Of a stretch of 35,099 nt of DNA, positions 22,934 to 23,673 are shown piece by piece (position 1 is the first letter of the stretch; every line of letters begins with the position of its first letter). Source of the DNA: Nitrosopumilaceae archaeon (GTDB lineage Archaea; Thermoproteota; Nitrososphaeria; Nitrososphaerales; Nitrosopumilaceae). Made by a program: the position numbers and the translations under genes. The notes below the pieces were generated by a model that saw only the letters and a list, made by a program, of their open reading frames with translations, had not been told where the DNA came from and made no database searches. Where the stretch lies: positions 1 to 35,099 of the forward strand of contig UYNY03000112.1 in assembly GCA_900620265.3 (NCBI GenBank), in the 5' to 3' direction.

Positions 22934-23533
22934 ATGGCGCACACCAAGAACCTCCTCCTCTTCCGCAAGTGGGACATGACCAAGATAAAGGTCGTGGACC
23001 CGGGGCTCAAGACGGCCATATCGCTGCGGCGGCAGATACTGCCGTACACGTACGGGCGCTCGGCCCTCAAGAGGTTCAACAAGGCCGACGTCAACATCGT
23101 GGAGCGGCTCATCAACAAGACGATGCACTTTGGAAAGAGGTACGCAAAGAACACGGGCCGGATGGCCGGGAAAAAGGCGCGGGCGCTCGCGACCGTCGAG
23201 GCCGCGTTTGACATCATACACCTAAAGACGGGCCAGAACCCCGTCGAGCTGCTGGTCAGGGCGGTCGAGCACTCCGCCCCCAACGAGGACACGACCCGCA
23301 TCGTCTACGGCGGGACCGTCTACCACGTATCGGTCGACGTGGCCCCGATAAGGAGGGTGGACCTGGCGCTGCGGTTCATAGCAGACGCGGTAAAGGAGGC
23401 GTCGTTCTCCAACCCGTCGACCGTCGAGGAGAACCTGGCAGAGCAGCTGATGATGGCGGCCGCCGGCGACCCGACGGCCCCGTCCGTAAAGAAGAAGAAC
23501 GAGCTGGAGCGGATAGCGCAGGCGTCAAGATAG
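22934..23533 (+). CDS. rps7: Ribosomal protein S7 (uS7)
   Basis: A 199-residue small-subunit head protein. Recognisable regions are SLRRQILPYTYGRSALKRFN, KADVNIVERLINKTMHFGKR, the KTGQNPVELLVRAVEHSAPN segment, GGTVYHVSVDVAPIRRVDLA and the C-terminal SFSNPSTVEENLAEQLMMAA. The ATG follows the rps12 stop by five bases, with GGAGG ahead. Its TAG codon is shared with the 3' end of a tRNA gene on the opposite strand. In many archaea the EF-1A gene would follow here; it does not in this window. Confidence 0.96.
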   Translation: MAHTKNLLLFRKWDMTKIKVVDPGLKTAISLRRQILPYTYGRSALKRFNKADVNIVERLINKTMHFGKRYAKNTGRMAGKKARALATVEAAFDIIHLKTGQNPVELLVRAVEHSAPNEDTTRIVYGGTVYHVSVDVAPIRRVDLALRFIADAVKEASFSNPSTVEENLAEQLMMAAAGDPTAPSVKKKNELERIAQASR

Positions 23534-23565
23534 CCCGAGGCAGATTCGAACTGCCGCCTCCGCCT

Positions 23566-23580
23566 GTCCCCCGGGGATGT
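23566..23580 (-). other. tRNA-Gln canonical intron at 37/38
   Basis: 15 nt. The precursor folds as anticodon stem CCGCC/GGCGG, central 4-pair helix CUCU/GGGG (two C-G and two U-G pairs), 3-nt bulges GGA and ACA, and an 8-nt loop. Cutting after the second base of each bulge (GG^A, AC^A) leaves a 7-nt anticodon loop. Confidence 0.75.
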
Positions 23581-23596
23581 CCAGAGGGCGGAATCC

Positions 23597-23617
23597 TTGG
23601 CCCGGCGCACGCGCCGA
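23597..23617 (-). other. tRNA-Gln noncanonical intron in the D arm
   Basis: 21 nt, between tRNA positions 21 and 22. The precursor has a central 4-bp helix GGUC/GGCC flanked by 3-nt bulges AAU and AAG, capped by the intron stem CGGCG/CGCCG with loop CGUG. Cutting at AA^U and AA^G removes exactly the 21 nt that spoil the D arm. This is a complete bulge-helix-bulge motif for the tRNA splicing endonuclease. Confidence 0.8.
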
Positions 23618-23663
23618 TTGACCGCTAGACTATCGGGCTACGTCATCCGCCCCGCCGATCCCG

Positions 23664-23673
23664 TGATATAACC
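23664..23673 (-). promoter_or_regulatory. TATA box of tRNA-Gln
   Basis: The minus strand reads GGTTATATCA, about 29 bp before the mature 5' end, so the transcript probably starts at or next to the mature end. Confidence 0.6.

Follow-up and report, generated by a model that had tools for sequence, protein, structure and literature searches.

D-arm introns, tRNAs with two introns and noncanonical introns in Thaumarchaeota have all been published already. The tRNA-Thr(UGU) of Aeropyrum pernix carries an intron 22 bases from its 5' end, the splicing of which is confirmed by cDNA, and the D-arm intron of Sulfolobus tokodaii tRNA-Glu is cut by EndA in vitro (PMC4307357). Two or three introns in a single tRNA gene have also been described (PMC3218864), and the description of tRNAscan-SE 2.0 counts 107 noncanonical tRNA introns in Thaumarchaeota (PMC8450103). 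Here, we describe a tRNA-Gln(CUG) gene with two introns, one of them in the D arm, on a contig of 35,099 nucleotides from a Nitrosopumilaceae archaeon, a marine ammonia oxidiser (UYNY03000112.1; hereafter, the window). Genes of the RNA polymerase large-subunit, NusA, S12 and S7 types stand in one row in the window, which is archaeal; its S7 protein is 75-85% identical to those of Nitrosopumilaceae and relatives.

A tRNA-Gln(CUG) gene with two introns

The gene occupies the complement of 23531..23639, so that the tRNA runs from position 1 at 23639 to the discriminator base at 23531. After excision of 23597-23617 and 23566-23580, the mature tRNA comprises 73 nt without an encoded CCA (AGCCCGAUAGUCUAGCGGUCAAGGAUUCCGCCCUCUGGAGGCGGAGGCGGCAGUUCGAAUCUGCCUCGGGCUA), and ARAGORN names this spliced sequence tRNA-Gln(ctg). 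It contains cloverleaf stems of 7/4/5/5 bp, U8, a T loop of the TTCGAAT type and the anticodon CUG. The original prediction of a tRNA-Gln(CUG) at 23531-23639 with two introns, one of them at 21/22, is supported both by the ARAGORN call on the spliced form and by the orthologues described below. Gene, introns, conservation and enzyme genes were each established by computation. The features are as follows:

23664..23670, minus strand: probable TATA box, TTATATC (from the sequence; centre about 28 nt upstream of the tRNA 5' end)
23531..23639, minus strand: tRNA-Gln(CUG) precursor, 109 nt, two introns (from the sequence, ARAGORN on the spliced form and same-locus orthologues)
23618..23639, minus strand: exon 1, with the acceptor 5' strand, the D stem 5' strand and the D loop to A21 (alignment with intron-less orthologues)
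23597..23617, minus strand: D-arm intron, 21 nt, site 21/22, UCGGCGCGUGCGCCGGGCCAA, with bulge-helix-bulge GGUC/GGCC and bulges AAU/AAG (fold, exact absence in intron-less orthologues, covariation)
23581..23596, minus strand: exon 2, from the D stem 3' strand to G37, with the anticodon CUG inside (ARAGORN; alignment with intron-less orthologues)
23566..23580, minus strand: intron of 15 nt at the canonical site 37/38, ACAUCCCCGGGGGAC (ARAGORN after removal of the D-arm intron; orthologues)
23531..23565, minus strand: exon 3, with A38, the anticodon stem 3' strand, the variable loop, the T arm, the acceptor 3' strand and the discriminator A (ARAGORN)

Judged from its sequence and place, TTATATC is the probable TATA box of the gene, and most relatives likewise have an A+T-rich element of the TTATAT type upstream of their tRNA-Gln(CUG) gene. 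At its other end, the gene converges on rps7 with zero spacer in the window, the discriminator base facing the T of the rps7 stop codon TAG (23531-23533, other strand); in relatives, the gap is longer.

Structure of the introns

Free folding of the 109-nt precursor recovered all four cloverleaf stems (acceptor, D, anticodon and T) and, with them, the D-arm bulge-helix-bulge. The geometry proposed for the D arm from inspection of the sequence, GGUC/GGCC with bulges AAU and AAG, thus reappears when the whole precursor is folded de novo to minimum energy, with pair probabilities of 0.71-0.87 for the four central pairs, and the intron itself forms a hairpin of five pairs, CGGCG-CGUG-CGCCG. In the same minimum-energy fold, the motif takes a relaxed form, because G22 of the second bulge remains paired in the D stem; the exon helix flanking the bulge is short, consisting of the 4-bp D stem with two G-U pairs. 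Because the triplet CAA repeats at both borders of the intron, the exact cut is unreadable from the sequence and could slide by up to 3 nt with the product unchanged; the same splice-border ambiguity is described for Sulfolobus tokodaii (PMC4307357). The folding energy of the whole precursor did not differ significantly from that of shuffled sequences (z = -1.62).

For the anticodon-loop intron, ARAGORN and the homologues bear out the position first proposed, but not the helix register that came with it (CUCU/GGGG, bulges GGA/ACA), which is worse by about 6 kcal/mol than a register shifted by one nucleotide; the latter has a probability of about 0.95-0.97. As the canonical register is energetically disfavoured, placement of this intron at 37/38 rests on the anticodon loop and the homologues. 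An A repeats at its borders, and the cut could slide by 1 nt with the same product.

Orthologues and covariation

Orthologues of tRNA-Gln(CUG) are present in 56 of the 60 genus members searched, and of 80 named relatives nearly all have the gene next to rps7. Counting the window, 107 copies were parsed: in 57 the D arm is uninterrupted, and in 50 an insertion of 14-22 nt lies at exactly the point of the window's D-arm intron. Single-base variation aside, the 57 uninterrupted D arms are identical to the predicted splice product: removal of the D-arm intron from the window gene yields the sequence of the intron-less orthologues, and the spliced D arm TAGTCTAGCGGTCAAGGAT occurs among these relatives. 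All 57 keep an intron of 14-18 nt at 37/38.

Base pairing in the D-arm motif is conserved as well. Across 50 distinct D-arm segments, drawn from copies at the locus and from pattern searches, 199 of the 200 cells of the central helix are paired; when the 3' strand is slid by one to three bases as a control, at most 57% pair. Within this helix, U20 pairs with A or G and C20 with G only, and exchange of U-A for C-G is seen; the U20/C20 partner counts are 24, 9, 0 and 17, for an association of p = 3.5e-7 with kinship ignored. The intron hairpin is rebuilt with different letters, CGGCG/CGCCG in the window versus UAA/UUA in relatives. At the level of sequence comparison, the presence and absence of the insertion among orthologues, taken together with covariation, exclude a chance origin of the D-arm motif.

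The locus also shows some local irregularities. In six copies (L051, L053, L089, L095, L096 and L099), the tRNA-Gln gene is inverted relative to rps7, and all six are without the D-arm intron. In the Nitrosopumilus sp. H13 MAG (L031), the tRNA-Gln gene just downstream of rps7 is without its acceptor 5' strand and TATA region (junction CAAATGGTTAGTCTAG), a gap that could stem from a deletion or from faulty assembly. A contig titled Candidatus Rhodobacter lobularis (L058) carries a thaumarchaeal rps7 locus with tRNA-Gln and is most likely a mislabelled or mixed assembly.

Distribution and history of the D-arm intron

Pattern searches were carried out over 200 genomes of the class with narrow patterns, so that absence outside the family means little. 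Intron-bearing matches were counted by pooling three such searches and leaving out chance matches, with one doubtful case counted: in a 0.8-Mb genome of the family (G182:C48:15540-15573), the D-arm insertion is shortened to 11 nt and has one broken central pair, possibly as a decaying or differently cut intron. Among these 200 genomes, matches to the intron-less form all fall in the window's genus (38 of 46 genomes); the other 55 genera, those of the same family included, gave none. The other 8 of the 46 (the window's own genome among them) have the intron-bearing form, as do 58 genomes from elsewhere in the family, and outside the family the narrow patterns gave no true match.

Since the genus is mostly intron-less and every match in the other genera of the family bears the intron, loss within the genus is the simplest reading. 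On this comparison of sequences, the D-arm intron probably dates back at least to the family ancestor, and most of the genus has since lost it, perhaps in more than one event. A different history, also compatible with splicing, would have the insertion gained repeatedly, through transposition of introns or their exchange between species. The tree built from three ribosomal/NusA proteins, in which the window sits on a long branch, does require 7 changes of intron state, at least 3 of them forced by well-supported branches, and intron transposition has been described in Thermoproteales (PMC4090602). Repeated gain nevertheless fits poorly with the finding that every family match outside the genus carries the intron, the intron-less form being absent there, and with an intron core that is similar across genera; we consider it improbable. 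With inheritance and loss, this single conserved locus would present an old noncanonical intron that many genera keep and that has gone, exactly at its splice junction, within one genus, and the intron-less orthologue provides a control for studying gain, loss and co-evolution with EndA.

Glutamine tRNA genes and splicing enzymes in the same genome

The original prediction had left open the matter of another CUG tRNA-Gln gene; no intact second copy was found in the assembly (2.0 Mb in 113 contigs, 96% complete). The sole other Gln gene among its tRNA hits is an intron-less UUG gene, and BLAST with the spliced tRNA returned only two full-length Gln genes, CUG and UUG. The genome also encodes RtcB and two PF01974 proteins, which are EndA paralogues. 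One matches the archaeal subunit of the catalytic type and has Tyr, His and Lys in the active-site columns; in the other, His is missing where the comparison shows one. Two PF01974 paralogues, one of them of the catalytic type, fit the alpha2-beta2 endonuclease attributed to Thaumarchaeota in a review (PMC4090602).

These gene counts bear on the possibility that the locus is a decayed tRNA pseudogene, its D-arm insertion being junk and CAG being read by tRNA-Gln(UUG) via wobble. A tRNA-Gln(UUG) gene does exist, and another CUG gene could be absent from an assembly that is 96% complete. Every stem of the mature form pairs, however, the insertion lies at one site in dozens of genomes with its base pairing kept, and the flanking TATA-like element is retained; such features are not expected to persist across genera, and we regard decay as highly improbable. 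It is just as implausible that the 21-nt segment is retained and enlarges the D arm of the mature tRNA, although the stable hairpin of the insertion lends this some colour: from species to species the insertion is free to differ in length and sequence whereas the splice helix persists, 57 relatives have the same tRNA without the insertion, and G18 and G19 would stay paired and block contact with the T loop.

Several other tRNA genes of this assembly are unusual. A 106-nt tRNA-Leu (L029; G000:C40:13401-13506), probably with the anticodon UAA, has an apparent D-arm insertion of ~20 nt with a strong hairpin, GGGCC-GCCA-GGCCC. A 147-nt candidate that ARAGORN names Gln(ttg) (L128; G000:C40:33530-33777) looks more like a tRNA-Trp(CCA) whose long intron contains C/D-box-like stretches (ATGATG, CTGA); a D-arm insertion may be present as well. 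Three tRNA genes with unusual, bacterial-looking bodies (L117 on G000:C36, L122 on G000:C87 and L124 on G000:C63) may lie on contaminating contigs; the reported contamination of the assembly is 2.67%.

Detection by gene finders

Standard gene finders had been expected to miss this tRNA, and ARAGORN and Rfam RF00005 both overlook the unspliced gene. ARAGORN returned nothing for it and, once the D-arm segment was removed, reported tRNA-Gln(ctg) with a 15-nt intron. RF00005 missed the unspliced gene in the window and in a whole-genome search, and at a permissive threshold produced only chance matches across the gene. With introns allowed, ARAGORN correctly named every one of the 57 copies in which the D-arm intron is absent. 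It failed on all 50 that carry this intron: 22 gave no call, 27 received the name of another tRNA and 1 was called Gln with the wrong intron. For annotation, this is a warning that an apparently single-copy tRNA gene is overlooked or misnamed by ARAGORN in every D-arm-intron copy tested, and overlooked genes of this kind can lead to false reports of missing tRNAs. tRNAscan-SE 2.0, which has thaumarchaeal intron models (PMC8450103), should detect the gene. Hidden genes as a cause of the clade-specific loss of CNN tRNAs (PMC6000648) were considered and are unsupported, as the losses described there concern Methanococcales and Methanobacteriales, with a single thaumarchaeon.

Proposed maturation of the tRNA

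The sequence evidence makes us confident that the locus encodes a functional archaeal tRNA-Gln(CUG) that would have its own TATA box, two introns cut by EndA, exons joined by RtcB and a 73-nt product that reads CAG. Transcription, cutting and joining are modelled here on established archaeal tRNA processing. The gene would be transcribed on the minus strand from its TATA box, and the precursor would fold into a cloverleaf with two intron arms. G18-G19-U20-C20a of the D loop would pair with four intron nucleotides to create a bulge-helix-bulge for the splicing endonuclease, probably an alpha2-beta2 EndA assembled from the two paralogues, and a second pair of EndA cuts would free the 15-nt intron at 37/38. 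Ligation of the exons by RtcB, addition of CCA and charging would then lead to an otherwise normal tRNA-Gln.

In established tRNA structure, G18 and G19 contact the T loop. With both residues held in the splice helix of the precursor, contact between the D loop and the T loop would presumably form only after splicing. The D-arm intron might then act as a checkpoint, in which paired G18-G19 delay the L-shape, modification enzymes and charging until EndA has cut. We offer this as a speculation that is more probably wrong than right by a good measure; if it were true, intron loss in most of the genus would amount to a natural experiment on the order of tRNA maturation.

Comparison with known systems

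The description of 21/22 as an uncommon position needs to be tempered: sites 20/21 and 22/23 appear in a review (PMC4090602), A. pernix offers a precedent (PMC4307357) and dozens of relatives share the intron. Among the papers searched, none names this tRNA-Gln intron. The A. pernix tRNA-Thr(UGU) and S. tokodaii tRNA-Glu genes likewise have bulge-helix-bulge introns in the D arm, in A. pernix at the same distance from the 5' end as in the window; they differ in being other tRNA species from Crenarchaeota, with no second intron stated in the sections that describe them (PMC4307357). The Thaumarchaeota set of tRNAscan-SE 2.0 comes from the same archaeal group, has the same intron motif and is known to include more than one intron per tRNA gene; its 107 introns may already contain this tRNA and site (PMC8450103). 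The window's intron is unusually G+C-rich. Variation of a D-arm-side intron has a parallel in the tRNA-Thr(GGU) of Caldiarchaeum subterraneum, which exists with two introns or one as the intron at 24/25 varies within the population (PMC3293823). That difference is tied to an inserted element (PMC3293823), whereas in tRNA-Gln(CUG) the absence of the intron is exact at the splice junction and extends across many species.
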